From Nitrospirota bacterium (lineage in GTDB: Bacteria > Nitrospirota > RBG-16-64-22 > JACRHK01), in NCBI GenBank assembly GCA_016217625.1, contig JACRHK010000076.1:1-10748 (forward strand): a stretch of 10,748 bases of DNA, written 5' to 3'. Each line of letters begins with the position of its first letter. Positions within the stretch are counted from its first letter, which is position 1. Shown one piece after another: positions 370 through 10,748 of this stretch. A model generated the notes under the pieces. That model had not been told where the DNA came from. It saw only the letters and a program-made list of their open reading frames with translations, and did not search any database. The position numbers and the translations under genes were made by a program.

Positions 370-1089
370 ATGCCATTGCAGGGCGGCATCTTCGGACAAC
401 GGTCTGGCACTCCCCAAGAGGGGGCTCTTCGTAAGCTTGCGCTCTTTACTGTAGGGGACGCGCTCTGCGGGACGGATCTGCAAGGGGTCCAGGAAGTGTT
501 GTCGGTCCCCTCTGGGGTGACGCCGCTTCCCGACGCCCCGCCTTTCGTCGAGGGAGTCGTCAACCTGCGGGACCAGGCCCTGCCGCTCGTGGATCTCCGC
601 AAGCGGTTCGGGCTCGCTGGTGAGAAGAAGTCAGAAGTCGGGAGTCAGGAGTCCTTTAATTCACCCCCCTCCCTAGCCCTCCCCCCCTCGAGGGGGGAGG
701 AAAGTGGTGGGGGGGGACGTTCTACGGTCAGGAGTCAAGAGTCAAGAGAGAGAAGACGGAGCGAGCGGAGCCGAGTTCTCGTGTGCCGGATAGCGGGGCA
801 GCTCCGGGGACTCATCGTTGACGCGGTGACAGGCATCCTTCGGGTGCCGGCCGGCAGCGTGGAACCGCCCCCTTCACTCGGGAAGCAGAGAGCGTCCTAC
901 CTTCAGGGGGTCGCCAGGCAGGGGGATCGGCTCGTCCTCCTCTTGGATCTGGAACAGGTGTTGACGTCGGAGGAGCGGATTCAGCTCGAAGAGGCCCTGA
1001 AGAGAAGTCAGGGGTCAGAAGTCAGAAGTCAGAAGTCCGATGTCCAAAGTCCAAGGTCGGGACGGAGGAGGCGGAAGGCTGAAAGCTGA
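370..1089 (+). CDS. cheW: CheW-like chemotaxis coupling protein with a large in-frame repeat insertion and repeat-derived tail
   Basis: CheW proteins link chemoreceptors to the CheA kinase in the cytoplasm. The N-terminal half matches the family: LALFTVGDALCGTDLQGVQEVL, then a PLPDAPPFVEGVVNLRDQALPLVDLRKRFGL segment. The second half resumes with VLVCRIAGQLRGLIVDAVTGILRVP and ends near YLQGVARQGDRLVLLLDLEQVL. Between them, about 49 residues (bases 625-771) rich in Ser, Arg, Glu, Pro and Gly are encoded by repeats and have no counterpart in ordinary CheW. The last 25 or so residues, rich in Ser, Gln and Arg, are also repeat-encoded. At 239 residues it is long for CheW, usually about 150-170. 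I chose ATG 370. A TTG at 343 is in frame but lies inside the 8-bp repeat array, and neither start has a clear Shine-Dalgarno. It is the first gene of the chemosensory run. The frame is intact, so it may be functional, but the insertion raises doubt. Confidence 0.85.
   Translation: MPLQGGIFGQRSGTPQEGALRKLALFTVGDALCGTDLQGVQEVLSVPSGVTPLPDAPPFVEGVVNLRDQALPLVDLRKRFGLAGEKKSEVGSQESFNSPPSLALPPSRGEESGGGGRSTVRSQESRERRRSERSRVLVCRIAGQLRGLIVDAVTGILRVPAGSVEPPPSLGKQRASYLQGVARQGDRLVLLLDLEQVLTSEERIQLEEALKRSQGSEVRSQKSDVQSPRSGRRRRKAES
625..771 (+). repeat. Composite in-frame repeat insertion inside cheW (heptads, GC palindrome, heptads)
   Basis: The left part has four 7-mers of the type GRAGTCN at 627-654. 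The centre (about 661-717) is a C-rich then G-rich imperfect palindrome around CTCGAG at 687-692, with six perfect C:G pairs on either side. The right part has further heptads at 731-751 (GGAGTCA, AGAGTCA, AGAGAGA). The block is 147 bases, exactly 49 codons, and contains no stop in the cheW frame. Homology to CheW is clear on both sides, so the block looks like a later insertion into a surface loop between the two halves of the domain. The exact borders are my estimate from where family similarity stops and resumes. Confidence 0.75.
1004..1057 (+). repeat. GAAGTCA heptad repeats encoding the CheW C-terminal tail
   Basis: Five consecutive 7-mers (GAAGTCA, GGGGTCA, GAAGTCA, GAAGTCA, GAAGTCC) occupy 1004-1038 and are followed by GTCCAAA and GTCCAAG variants to about 1057. 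Because 7 is not a multiple of 3, the array reads as a Ser/Val/Gln/Arg/Lys-rich peptide that cycles through all frames. It begins where CheW homology ends. Confidence 0.85.
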
Positions 1090-1112
1090 TTGCTGAACGC
1101 TGAGGACTGAGA
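1078..1112 (+). repeat. GCTGANN heptads bridging the cheW stop and the next gene's start
   Basis: Five 7-mers of the type GCTGANN run from 1078 to 1112. They contain the TGA stop of cheW (1087-1089), supply the GAGG Shine-Dalgarno at 1102-1105, and reach the ATG at 1112 of the HEAT-repeat gene. Confidence 0.75.
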
Positions 1113-3139: not shown

Positions 3140-4028
3140 GCCGATCCCGCCCCTCAACGACGAGACCTTTCGGTTGCTCAGGGACCTGATCCATGACTAT
3201 TGCGGTATCTACTTCGAGGAAAGCGGCCGCTTCCTGCTGGAGCGGCGGTTGGCCCGCCGGCTGAGCCTCCATCAGCTGCCGGGATTTCGGGACTACTATC
3301 TTCTCCTGAAGTACGGCAAGCATCGGGATGAGGAGCTGGCGGCGGTCATCGATCTGCTCACGACGAACGAAACCTATTTCTTCCGGGAAGAGGCGGGGCT
3401 GCGCGCCTTCTGCGAGGAGATTGTCCCCGAGCTCCGGGAGCGTCGAAAGCAGGACCGGACGCTCCGGATCTGGAGCGCGGGGTGCTCCACGGGGGAAGAG
3501 CCTTACACCCTCGCGATCCTGCTGCTGGAGGCGGGGCCGTGGGAGGAATGGGACGTGGAAATCCTGGGAAGCGACATCAACCAGCGGGTGCTGCAGGCAG
3601 CGCGCCGGGGGGTGTATAAACGCAGCGCCTTCCGCGCGACGGAGCCTCGGTACCTCAAGGAGTATTTCGAGGACGAGGGGGACGGGAGCTTCCGGATTCA
3701 AGACCGGGTCCGCCGCTGGGTGAGCTTCAACCACGTGAACCTGTTGGACCCTGCCCGCATAAGTCTGGTCCCCCGGATGGACGTGATTTTCTGCCGGAAC
3801 GTGAGTATCTATTTCGACCGGCAGGCGAAGCGGCAGGTGGTGGCCAGCTTCTATCAGAAGCTGGCTGAGGAGGGATACCTCCTGTTGGGCCATTCGGAGT
3901 CGTTGATCAACCTCTCCACCGATTTTACGCTCCGGCACCTCAAGCATGACATGGTCTACCAAAAACCGTTCCGACAGGGGGTCCAAGGTCCAATGTCCCA
4001 TGTCCAGAGTCAGGCGCGGAGCTATTGA
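3126..4028 (+). CDS. cheR: CheR chemoreceptor glutamate methyltransferase
   Basis: CheR transfers methyl groups from S-adenosylmethionine to glutamates of chemoreceptors, the slow adaptation arm opposed by CheB. The 300-residue product has the N-terminal helical CheR domain at residues 11-60 (NDETFRLLRDLIHDYCGIYF, then a basic LLERRLARRL segment). The methyltransferase domain follows with TTNETYFFRE at 79-88, the SAM-binding loop SAGCSTGEEPYTLAI at 117-131, LGSDIN at 147-152, and the signature DVIFCRNVSIYFD at 219-231 followed by LLLGHSESL. All expected motifs are present and length is normal. There is no TPR extension. About the last 15 residues are encoded by GTCC heptads (3981-4015) and look like a repeat-derived tail. 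The frame overlaps the HEAT gene upstream by 14 bases, and cheB starts 2 bases after its TGA. Confidence 0.97.
   Translation: MWKPEPIPPLNDETFRLLRDLIHDYCGIYFEESGRFLLERRLARRLSLHQLPGFRDYYLLLKYGKHRDEELAAVIDLLTTNETYFFREEAGLRAFCEEIVPELRERRKQDRTLRIWSAGCSTGEEPYTLAILLLEAGPWEEWDVEILGSDINQRVLQAARRGVYKRSAFRATEPRYLKEYFEDEGDGSFRIQDRVRRWVSFNHVNLLDPARISLVPRMDVIFCRNVSIYFDRQAKRQVVASFYQKLAEEGYLLLGHSESLINLSTDFTLRHLKHDMVYQKPFRQGVQGPMSHVQSQARSY
3981..4015 (+). repeat. GTCCAAN heptad array at the 3' end of cheR
   Basis: Five exact-length 7-mers follow one another: GTCCAAG, GTCCAAT, GTCCCAT, GTCCAGA, GTCAGGC. They encode the CheR tail after its conserved domain and end 16 bases before the cheB ATG. Confidence 0.85.
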
Positions 4029-4030
4029 CC

Positions 4031-5152
4031 ATGCCCATCCGCGTATTAGTTGTCGATGAGTCCGCGTACAACCGCCAGGCGATCCGGCGGATGCTGGAAT
4101 CCCACCCGGAAATCCGGGTCGTCGGCGCGGCGCGTGACGGGGAGGAGGCCATGGCGCAGACGCTCCGCCTCCGTCCGGACCTCATCACGCTCGATCTGGA
4201 GATGCCGAGGATGGACGGGTTCACCTTCCTCCGCTGGGTCATGGCCACCCACCCGATGCCCGTGCTGGTGGTGAGCGCCCGCTCCGACGACCGGAGCGTC
4301 CTCCGGGCCCTGGAGCTGGGAGCGGTGGACTTCGTGGCCAAACCGATCGCGGGCGCTTCGGCCCAGCTTCTCACGATCCAGGAGGATCTGGTGGAGAAGG
4401 TCTCCTCCGTGGCCGGCCTCGAGATCCGGAAGCTGCAAGCCAGTCTGCGGCTATCGGAGTCCGCGGCCCTGCACCCTCCCCGAGAGGTTGCGGAGGTGGG
4501 CGTGCACGTGTCCCGCACAAGGATGAAGCACCCGGCCGTGGTCGCCATCGGGGCTTCCACGGGGGGGCCGCCCGCCATCCAGGCCGTTCTCCAACACCTC
4601 CCGGCATCGTACCCTGCCGCGGTCCTGGTCACCCAGCATATGCCCTCAGGGTTTACCCGTCACTTCGCGGAGCGGTTGAACAAGGGGGCCCGTGTGGAGG
4701 TGCGCGAGGCGGCGGAGGGAGAACTGATCCAAACGGGCAGGGTGCTCATCGCGCCGGGGGGATTCCACCTTGGCCTAAAGCGGCAGGGGAAGGAGGTCCG
4801 GACGACCCTCATCCCGCGCGAGGGGCGCGACCGCTATGTTCCCTCTGCGGATGTGATGCTGCGGTCGGCTGCGACAACTTGCGGATCCCGTACGCTGGGC
4901 GTCCTGCTGACGGGGATGGGGAACGACGGCACGGAGGGGTTGCGGGCCGTGAAGGCTGCCGGAGGGGAGACCTGGGCGGAGTCGGAAGAGAGCGCCGTGA
5001 TCTTCGGGATGCCTGCGGAGGCCATCCGGGCGGGGGTGGTGGACCGGGTGCTTCCATTGTCGAAGATCGTAGAGGAGGTTGCGGGATGGATTCCCTCCAC
5101 GGAGCGCGAGACGCCGGGAAGGACCCATGGAGGAGTAGGGAGCAGGAAGTAG
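4031..5152 (+). CDS. cheB: CheB chemotaxis response regulator, protein-glutamate methylesterase/deamidase
   Basis: CheB removes methyl groups from receptor glutamates and is activated by phosphorylation, usually from CheA. The 373-residue product has an N-terminal receiver domain (1-120): acidic D9/E10, phosphoacceptor D55 in LITLDLEMPRMDG, S82 and K104. A linker at about 121-165 leads to the CheB catalytic domain (168-355), with the nucleophile S176 in GASTGGP, H203 in TQHMP and D299 in LLTGMGNDG, the expected Ser-His-Asp triad. Start ATG 4031 has GGAG at 4018-4021. A TTG two codons upstream is less likely. The C-terminus (GGVGSRK) runs into the AGTAGGG heptads and stops inside them. Intact and of normal length, it pairs functionally with cheR just upstream. 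Confidence 0.97.
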   Translation: MPIRVLVVDESAYNRQAIRRMLESHPEIRVVGAARDGEEAMAQTLRLRPDLITLDLEMPRMDGFTFLRWVMATHPMPVLVVSARSDDRSVLRALELGAVDFVAKPIAGASAQLLTIQEDLVEKVSSVAGLEIRKLQASLRLSESAALHPPREVAEVGVHVSRTRMKHPAVVAIGASTGGPPAIQAVLQHLPASYPAAVLVTQHMPSGFTRHFAERLNKGARVEVREAAEGELIQTGRVLIAPGGFHLGLKRQGKEVRTTLIPREGRDRYVPSADVMLRSAATTCGSRTLGVLLTGMGNDGTEGLRAVKAAGGETWAESEESAVIFGMPAEAIRAGVVDRVLPLSKIVEEVAGWIPSTERETPGRTHGGVGSRK

Positions 5153-5170
5153 GGAGCAAGAAGTAAGGAG
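5134..5170 (+). repeat. AGTAGGG/AGCAGGA heptad array between cheB and the GAF gene
   Basis: Five 7-mers (AGTAGGG, AGCAGGA, AGTAGGG, AGCAAGA, AGTAAGG) plus AG fill 5134-5170. The TAG of cheB (5150-5152) falls inside the third unit, and the last unit supplies the Shine-Dalgarno of the next gene. Confidence 0.88.
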
Positions 5171-6019: not shown

Positions 6020-6408
6020 TGACGACGAACGGTCCGACGTTTCTCATCGTGGAAGACTCGCCCACCATGCGCCAACTCATCGCGTTTGCGCTGAGGCGCA
6101 TCCGCGGAGCCAAGATTGTCGAAGCCTCCGACGGCGTGGACGCCCTCCGGAAGCTCTCGGGGCAGCGATTCGACCTGCTGCTGGTCGACATCAACATGCC
6201 GATCATGGACGGACTCAAGCTGCTGAGCCTGGTGCGCAGCGACCCCCAGTACCGCCAGACGCCGATCGTGATCGTGACGACGGAGGGGGCCGAGGAGGAT
6301 CGGAAAAAGGGGATGACCCTGGGGGCGAACGCCTACCTCACCAAGCCGATCCAGACGGCGGAGCTGCTGAAGGTCGTCCAGGACCTGCTCTCCCAGAAAA
6401 CCACGTGA
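6019..6408 (+). CDS. cheY: CheY-like single-domain response regulator
   Basis: This 129-residue protein is a stand-alone receiver domain, the phosphorylated output of a CheA kinase, which classically binds a motor switch or another effector. Key residues are present: acidic pocket E12/D13, phosphoacceptor D57 in LLLVDINMPIMDG, T87/T88 and K109 in LTKPI. No output domain is attached. The ATG at 6019 overlaps the GAF-gene TGA in a TGATG arrangement, with AGGAG at 6006-6010; a GTG at 6016 is an equally close alternative start. It is the last gene of the chemosensory run, and its stop lies in an inverted repeat shared with convergent rlmN. Whether it serves chemotaxis, type IV pilus motility or another output cannot be told here, as no flagellar or pilus gene is in view. 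Confidence 0.95.
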   Translation: MTTNGPTFLIVEDSPTMRQLIAFALRRIRGAKIVEASDGVDALRKLSGQRFDLLLVDINMPIMDGLKLLSLVRSDPQYRQTPIVIVTTEGAEEDRKKGMTLGANAYLTKPIQTAELLKVVQDLLSQKTT

Positions 6409-6467
6409 CCGTGGCCCGTGACCGTGACCGGAAGATCTTCCCGTCACGGGTCACCGTCACGGTCACG
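6404..6467. terminator. Inverted repeat between convergent cheY and rlmN, probable bidirectional terminator
   Basis: Two 32-base arms meet at AGATCT (centre 6435/6436), with about 24 of 32 positions complementary. The arms are built from GTGACC/GTCACGG units. The cheY TGA (6406-6408) lies in the left arm and the rlmN stop (6463-6465) in the right arm. On the minus strand the hairpin is followed by TTTT; on the plus strand only a weak T-rich TCTTTG follows. Placement between convergent genes supports termination; that it works is inference. Confidence 0.6.
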
Positions 6468-10311: not shown

Positions 10312-10748
10312 AGACGATGTGGCTCCTGTTGTTTGCGGCCCTCTATAGCCTCCTGTTCCATCCCCCCGCGCTGGAGTCTTCCGCTCCGGGACGCCTCGCT
10401 TCGGCCGGACAAGAGAGCAGTCGGACAGGTCAGACCGGTCAGACGGGTCAGACAGATCCCGAGGAGCGGTTCCGGCAGGCCCTCCAGGCTTGGGAGGCGG
10501 GAGATCGGGCTGCCGCGCTTGCGCTTCTTGAGCGGTTCGGGAAGGAGCATGCAGACTCGGTGTGGGGCGAGCGTGCCTTGCTGGTGTTGGGGCGGTGGTA
10601 CCGGGAGCAGGAATTGTGGAGTCCGGCGGCCGATCGGTTGGAGCAGTATGCCGGCCGCGCGCCGCTCCTCCGGGACTACGGGCTCTATCTCCTGGGAAAG
10701 GTGCGCGCCAAGGCGGGGGAGGGGATCCGGGCGGCGGAGGCCTTCGAC
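10308..10748 (+). CDS. Exported TPR-like protein, possibly N-terminus of a soluble lytic transglycosylase (3' truncated)
   Basis: The frame runs open from GTG 10308 to the end of the window, 147 codons. GTG overlaps the tonB stop as GTGA; ATG 10317 is an alternative. The N-terminus, MKTMWLLLFAALYSLLF, looks like a Sec signal peptide. A low-complexity linker with three Gly-Gln-Thr units (residues 41-49, counted from GTG) is encoded by a 9-bp tandem repeat. After it come helical, TPR-like segments: ERFRQALQAWEAGDRAAALALLERF, ERALLVLGRWYREQELWSPAADRL and LLRDYGLYLLGKVRAKAGEGIRAAEAF. The LLRDYGLYLLG phrase resembles the N-terminal superhelix of soluble lytic murein transglycosylases, but the catalytic SLT domain would lie beyond the window. 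YbgF/BamD-like TPR proteins are the main alternative. Export and helical repeats are well supported; the enzyme call is tentative. Confidence 0.65.
   Translation, partial: MKTMWLLLFAALYSLLFHPPALESSAPGRLASAGQESSRTGQTGQTGQTDPEERFRQALQAWEAGDRAAALALLERFGKEHADSVWGERALLVLGRWYREQELWSPAADRLEQYAGRAPLLRDYGLYLLGKVRAKAGEGIRAAEAFD
10428..10454 (+). repeat. Three GGTCAGACN 9-mers encoding Gly-Gln-Thr in an exported protein
   Basis: GGTCAGACC, GGTCAGACG and GGTCAGACA follow one another exactly and in frame. The unit shares the GTCA core with the heptads in the chemosensory module, but here the 9-base period keeps the codon phase, giving (GQT)3 just after the signal peptide. Confidence 0.85.

Follow-up and report, generated by a model that had tools for sequence, protein, structure and literature searches.

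Nested heptanucleotide and palindromic repeats lying in frame within a CheW protein of a Nitrospirota bacterium

Repetitive extragenic palindromic (REP) elements, which go with Y1 (RAYT-type) transposases, are short palindromes. Palindromic elements lying in frame in genes are best known from Rickettsia, where units of about 150 bp have been described in many genes (PMC10969869) and where a second paper has one in-frame case (PMC5656822). As for heptanucleotide repeats, the cited sections place them in bacteria mainly between genes or at gene ends: the TAACTGA repeats of Beggiatoaceae are mostly intergenic and, when in genes, lie mainly at the periphery (PMC4679880, which also cites an older proposal of polymerase slippage over 7 nucleotides (nt)), and the G-rich heptamers of Xanthomonas and Nostoc are under-represented in coding regions (PMC4692102). 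In Borg elements, tandem repeats with unit lengths divisible by three create disordered regions in open reading frames (ORFs) (PMC9879509). Here we analyse a stretch of 10,748 nt (the window), a 10.7-kb contig from a draft Nitrospirota genome (GCA_016217625.1; 1.61 Mb, 289 contigs, 77.9% complete), whose cheW gene carries in frame a heptanucleotide (heptad) repeat with a palindromic repeat nested inside it.

The insert in CheW

The PF01584 match to CheW is split into two stretches. In four PDB alignments the homology ends at residues 81-88 and restarts at 128-134, and in six PDB sequences the best stretch either ends at 86-88 or begins at 133. The frame is open up to the stop codon at 1087-1089. 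The observation on which the original prediction was built, an in-frame interruption without stops between the two halves of CheW, is thus confirmed, with changed limits. The interruption had been taken for one element of 147 bases and 49 codons; it is indeed an insertion of dispersed repeats, but a single element is ruled out by the two nested repeat families, which are distributed separately, and the size was overestimated. The anchors LVDLRKRF and RVLV enclose nt 610-771, or 54 residues, in this CheW, whereas the loop between them has 10-12 residues in 108 of the 111 homologues (this CheW counted) and 41 in each of P0002 and P0003, its two closest relatives, so the net gain is 42-44 codons, about 43. 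CheW matches are present in all 61 genomes examined, including this one, and the two halves are directly adjacent in several pairs among the matches listed (e.g. G056, G008 and G009); an alignment scan gave 80 distant CheW loci, and a protein scan of the genome contigs found no relative.

Between residues 80 and 135 the insert reads heptads, palindrome, heptads (Table 1), with GTC recurring at 630, 637, 644 and 651 in the left array and at 727, 734 and 741 in the right one. A 66-nt core of the palindrome has 12 strong places in the genome (E 8e-29 to 9e-8) and 13 weaker matches, 8 of them being these copies read on the opposite strand, while the heptad pattern, one mismatch being allowed, is found 160 times in the genome against 38 for a reversed-pattern control. 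The insert is therefore not a chance sequence, nor is it a block unique to this place. The palindrome is an imperfect one, with pairing at 73% of 26 arm positions. Its RNA is not clearly more stable than shuffled sequences (z of -0.94 and -0.91, and -2.21 for the reverse strand), and an RNA role was set aside, with no Rfam match at gathering scores and no strong folding excess. A plasmid search with window positions 648-735 gave no match, although a low-complexity filter may hide one and phages were not searched.

How does the protein accommodate the insert? In the AlphaFold model of CheW, pLDDT is about 50-63 over residues 81-130 and 89-96 in most core blocks, and residues 121-133 form a helix; for KdsB, which carries another copy, residues 183-218 fall below 50 and most core blocks reach 74-96 (11 sequences). 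Both folds are predicted to be intact around a disordered insert, which in CheW is probably a longer, floppy loop of nearly neutral effect. The first interpretation of the insert is accordingly partly supported: the tolerated loop insertion agrees with the models, and for the newly made binding segment no support was found.

Relatives and the order of arrival

Which of the two repeats came first? In KdsB the palindrome copy is in frame and PF02348 homology continues after the insert. The KdsB relatives P0113 (95% identical over the alignment) and P0114 (94%) carry the same palindrome, partly doubled, between heptad peptides; in P0115 (91% identical) the place is taken by FVRSQKSEVRSQEFG, the peptide encoded by AGTCAGA arrays, without the palindrome. 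In CheW, P0002 and P0003 hold other content at the insert site. SEV-type peptides precede three different fillings in the three closest CheW proteins, and QESRERRRSER follows the filling both in ours and in P0003. The filling of P0003, KIPPPPPFFKGGDRGDL, is similar to PPFPPLAKGGERGF, a peptide encoded in frame after a heptad array on C170 of this genome (PF10604, below cut-off), and is clearly a second palindrome family, of PPFFKGG type, with 4 pattern matches in this genome and 0 in the control.

TrpE has two such sites. At the first, an array in our gene encodes QVQESGVRSQESEVR (15 residues); the place has 8 residues in 110 of 120 proteins, P0233 among them, and 9-16 residues of other content in 9 more. 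At the second, the heptad-like peptides at the start are similar in ours and P0233, and the palindrome-like peptides after them differ. Heptads and palindromes also meet in L284, where an array leads directly into a CCCCCCTTTTCTAAAGGGGGG palindrome, and in C283, where a palindrome lies between heptad-like stretches. Across KdsB, CheW and TrpE, then, the heptads are shared or stand alone and the palindromes differ or are missing, which suggests that the heptad repeat settled first and that the palindrome landed inside it later. The heptad-only state is seen, at the protein level, in a KdsB relative; in CheW and TrpE we infer the order from sequence comparison.

The other content of P0002 and P0003, together with the absence of the insert in 108 of 111 homologues, points to a repeatedly filled site and not to an ancestral domain, a candidate that is ruled out because the content differs across the three closest CheW proteins. 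The original prediction had asked whether insertion-free homologues exist, which the great majority are, and had conceded that a conserved segment in all close homologues would speak against it; the two closest do have a segment there, but its content is not conserved.

We consider it fairly probable that the insert arose in two stages, by repeats invading a tolerant loop in frame: i) a dispersed (AGTCRRR)n array would have settled in the loop joining the two CheW halves and ii) a palindromic repeat of some 72-75 nt, free of stops in the frame used, would have landed inside this array, which would be its way of entry. Other lineages would have received other palindromes or none, and only stop-free, frame-keeping events in tolerant loops would have survived. 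Candidate movers are a Y1-type transposase and exchange between heptad arrays, through recombination or template switching.

Heptad arrays, palindrome copies and the cheW locus

Tandem 7-nt units exceed chance in this genome: a 244.5-kb sample (60 stretches plus the window, chosen for AGTC arrays and palindromes and hence repeat-rich) has 106 period-7 arrays against 2 after shuffling, and 50 AGTC-type arrays. Period 7 dominates (25 arrays of period 6, 17 of period 8 and 22 of period 12), with many unrelated unit sequences. Among 295 genomes of the phylum sample, this one included, 65 have the exact heptad pattern, whose count is highest here (39+57; control 6+4), and 27 have the palindrome core at E<=1e-6. 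Because 7 is coprime to 3, an AGTC array encodes the same heptapeptide (SQKSEVR or SQESGVR) whichever of the three forward frames is read; it hits a stop in every reverse frame, and therefore only forward arrays can persist inside a gene. If an array counts as lying inside an ORF when the ORF has at least 200 codons and leaves 90 nt to either side of it, 16 of the 50 AGTC arrays of our sample do so and 18 of 22 in other genomes (20 stretches from 8 genomes, hand-picked among the matches listed for the exact pattern), none of them, in either set, in the stop-bearing orientation. Given these stops, possibly spurious ORFs in our genome and the fact that genes fill most of a bacterial genome, the genic arrays show tolerance within genes and not a preference for them.

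The genes concerned, with Pfam or PDB support, are Tgt, TrpE, PolA, RecJ and RecG (an array of another unit) in this genome and, elsewhere, a RecN-type ATPase, homoserine dehydrogenase, a PolyA_pol/Cca-type enzyme, CarB, an ABC ATPase and TrpE, and also an AcrB-family transporter, chorismate synthase, alanine racemase, Dxs and HemC. The alanine racemases of G089 and G147, of one family and different genera, have the AGTC array at the same place (L277 1553-1593 and L287 1641-1677); the array of L288 is below threshold. The best PDB alignments have gaps at the array of about 9 (Dxs), 3 (Alr), 15 (HemC) and 3 (Tgt) residues. These disagree with a rule by which every array adds exactly 7n residues, which was dropped; a clean 7 is found at TrpE site 1 only.

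Three of the 12 strong palindrome copies sit between conserved parts of a gene, in CheW, KdsB and a PcnB-like protein. The last is reversed and in frame, with PF12627 before it and PF12626 after it, and its PDB match is weak. The search for further in-frame copies, which the original prediction had recommended, was thus rewarded twice. The CheW copy has one forward and one reverse frame open, the forward one being used; in the PcnB-like copy the sole open frame is the reverse one, which is the one used. A weak partial copy (E 0.002) interrupts RtcA, and the C5 copy encodes the C-terminal end of a Cu-oxidase_4 protein; none of the remaining strong copies was seen inside a recognised domain, that of C192 being visible in part only. 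Y1_Tnp has 3 matches above the cut-off. One of these genes is on C238 (L099 1931-2914, minus strand), which also carries the PcnB-like copy, and by eye it is flanked by an exact 22-nt inverted repeat, GGGACGTTGGTTCTCAGGATGC; its 200-nt flanks hold this inverted repeat of its own and no CheW-type palindrome. Also by eye, C103 (6389-6444, in L111) shows the reverse nesting, an AGTCAAT-type array between the arms of a CACCCTCCC/GGGGGGGTG palindrome.

The window encodes CheW, a HEAT-repeat protein, CheR, CheB, a GAF protein and a response regulator; one CheA-type match (PF02895, partial) is on contig C55. For cheW an ATG start at 370 was assumed, the longest reading starting from a TTG at 343. Among 86 aligned CheW sequences, residue 68 (571-573) is Gly in 82 and Asp in 3, ours included. 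Heptad arrays encode the C-terminal ends of CheR (3980-4006) and CheB (5134-5170), and heptads likewise form the ends of CheW and KdsB. Arrays of other periods are found as well: two 8-mer arrays in inverted order, AGTCAATA and ATTGACTC, at 271-352 between the first ORF and cheW, with similar inverted arrays in C244 and C219; inverted 6-mer arrays of GTGACC type at 6404-6466, directly after the response regulator, with a related inverted array in C16; and a 9-mer array, GTCAGACAG, at 10420-10455, in frame close to the start of the last ORF.

Table 1. Positions in the window of cheW, of the parts of its insert and of the arrays at its end
Feature	Position	Strand	Basis and remarks
cheW	370..1089	+	PF01584 in two stretches; top Foldseek matches are CheW chains, TM by target up to 0.84
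Left heptanucleotide array, AGTCRRR type, reads KKSEVGSQES	626..653	+	TRF period 7; passes 12/14 period-7 rule
Palindromic unit, 72 nt; core common to 11 other strong genome places	655..726	+	Core search; limits drawn by eye from the CheW and KdsB copies
Perfect palindrome core CCCCCCTCGAGGGGGG	682..697	.	6 exact genome places, 4 more with one mismatch
Right heptanucleotide array, reads VRSQESRE	727..749	+	TRF period 7 at 727-748; passes period-7 rule
Charged insert tail RERRRSERS	750..771	+	Common to P0003; within predicted helix, residues 121-133
Further heptad arrays	1003..1103	+	TRF rows; encode CheW C-terminal tail and extend beyond the stop codon

Competing explanations and known systems

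Several points weigh against the two-stage proposal. The heptad-only state is known from one gene, KdsB, and as a protein only, and the length of the KdsB loop varies in any case (from 9 to 49 residues among 120 proteins, 46 of which have 11). The orientation of the arrays inside ORFs is partly forced by the definition of an ORF. Under the strict period-7 rule, arrays stand on both sides of 1 of the 12 strong copies, that of CheW; the KdsB, C90 and C238 copies have one on one side at a relaxed rule and the other 8 have none. By eye, the flanks of the KdsB copy are a weaker array and, opposite it, about two degenerate units. If random landing is assumed and CheW and KdsB are both counted, the chance of such nesting is 7e-5 to 3e-4, or 0.012 with the density of the repeat-rich sample; with CheW alone it rises to 0.012-0.024, and to 0.16 at the sample's heptad density. 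Proximity in general is modest, with 9 of 69 palindromes at most 30 nt from an array, where 300 local shifts average 2.9 and reach 9 at best, in a test whose palindrome threshold misses the CheW and KdsB palindromes. A preference of palindromes for heptads is thus weakly supported by DNA statistics; the comparison of relatives suggests such an entry site and the statistics leave it unproven.

An unlikely alternative, though the one that survives best, is that heptad-palindrome-heptad is a cassette that moves as a whole, for instance when heptad arrays recombine, so that the heptads arrive with the palindrome or act as homology arms. The CheW and KdsB copies have identical junctions, GTCAGG following at equal spacing (which counts in favour of the two-stage proposal as well), and by eye the C90, C238 and C53 copies have another common flank type, short and of GGCGTGA type. 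However, many heptad arrays have no palindrome, the P0115 loop is heptad peptide alone, and relatives have different palindromes at the same place. Heptads and palindromes might also have arrived independently in loops that merely tolerate inserts, with no landing preference, which we likewise find improbable. The single strictly nested copy and the modest proximity would fit, as would the repeat-like peptides that the more distant TrpE proteins P0329 and P0351 have at the same linker (site 2), but in KdsB the palindrome peptide is enclosed by the heptad peptide instead of adjoining it, and the succession of heptad and palindrome recurs in C170, C283 and L284.

Misassembly or a decaying gene, which a draft of 289 contigs and the Asp at CheW residue 68 might bring to mind, is very hard to reconcile with the open frame, with inserts at the same point in relatives from other data sets and with in-frame heptads in a single-contig genome (G016, L289). 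Least credible is a functional, inherited binding or linker module gained by this CheW subfamily. The 41-54 residues that all three closest CheW proteins have at the place and the helix predicted at residues 121-133 of ours would fit, but the content differs among the three, the sequence of our insert recurs in KdsB and other places, and most of this insert is predicted to be disordered.

The two-stage proposal may extend further. We regard it as possible, but rather doubtful, that heptad arrays are frame-blind spacers that disperse across the phylum, settle in loops of essential enzymes and then serve as entry sites for several unrelated palindromes, a two-stage process that would keep lengthening the loops of core enzymes and signalling proteins. 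In any case, the short loop, the heptad alone, the heptad with palindrome and the partly doubled palindrome form a natural series that could be used to test how proteins gain disordered loops and how repeats move.

No description of nested in-frame heptad and palindrome repeats was found in the open-licence literature, subscription papers not being covered. As far as the cited parts of the literature go, the CheW palindrome appears to work like the Rickettsia palindromic elements, a likeness of behaviour and not of compared sequence: it is a short, here imperfect, palindromic repeat in several copies (12 strong places), in frame in unrelated genes, giving a common peptide compatible with the fold of the host protein. 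It differs in length, its unit of about 72-75 nt falling short of their 100-150 bp or so, in being nested in heptads and in belonging to another phylum. REP elements are short palindromes too, and nothing found here ties the 3 Y1_Tnp matches to the CheW palindrome. The heptads resemble the Beggiatoaceae TAACTGA repeats as dispersed 7-nt direct repeats, patchy across lineages and partly inside ORFs, but many arrays here lie within conserved enzymes and a palindrome sits within one. With the Xanthomonas and Nostoc heptamers they share the many dispersed arrays and not the unit sequence. Finally, like Borg repeats they are tandem repeats in ORFs that go with disorder, but with a unit of 7.
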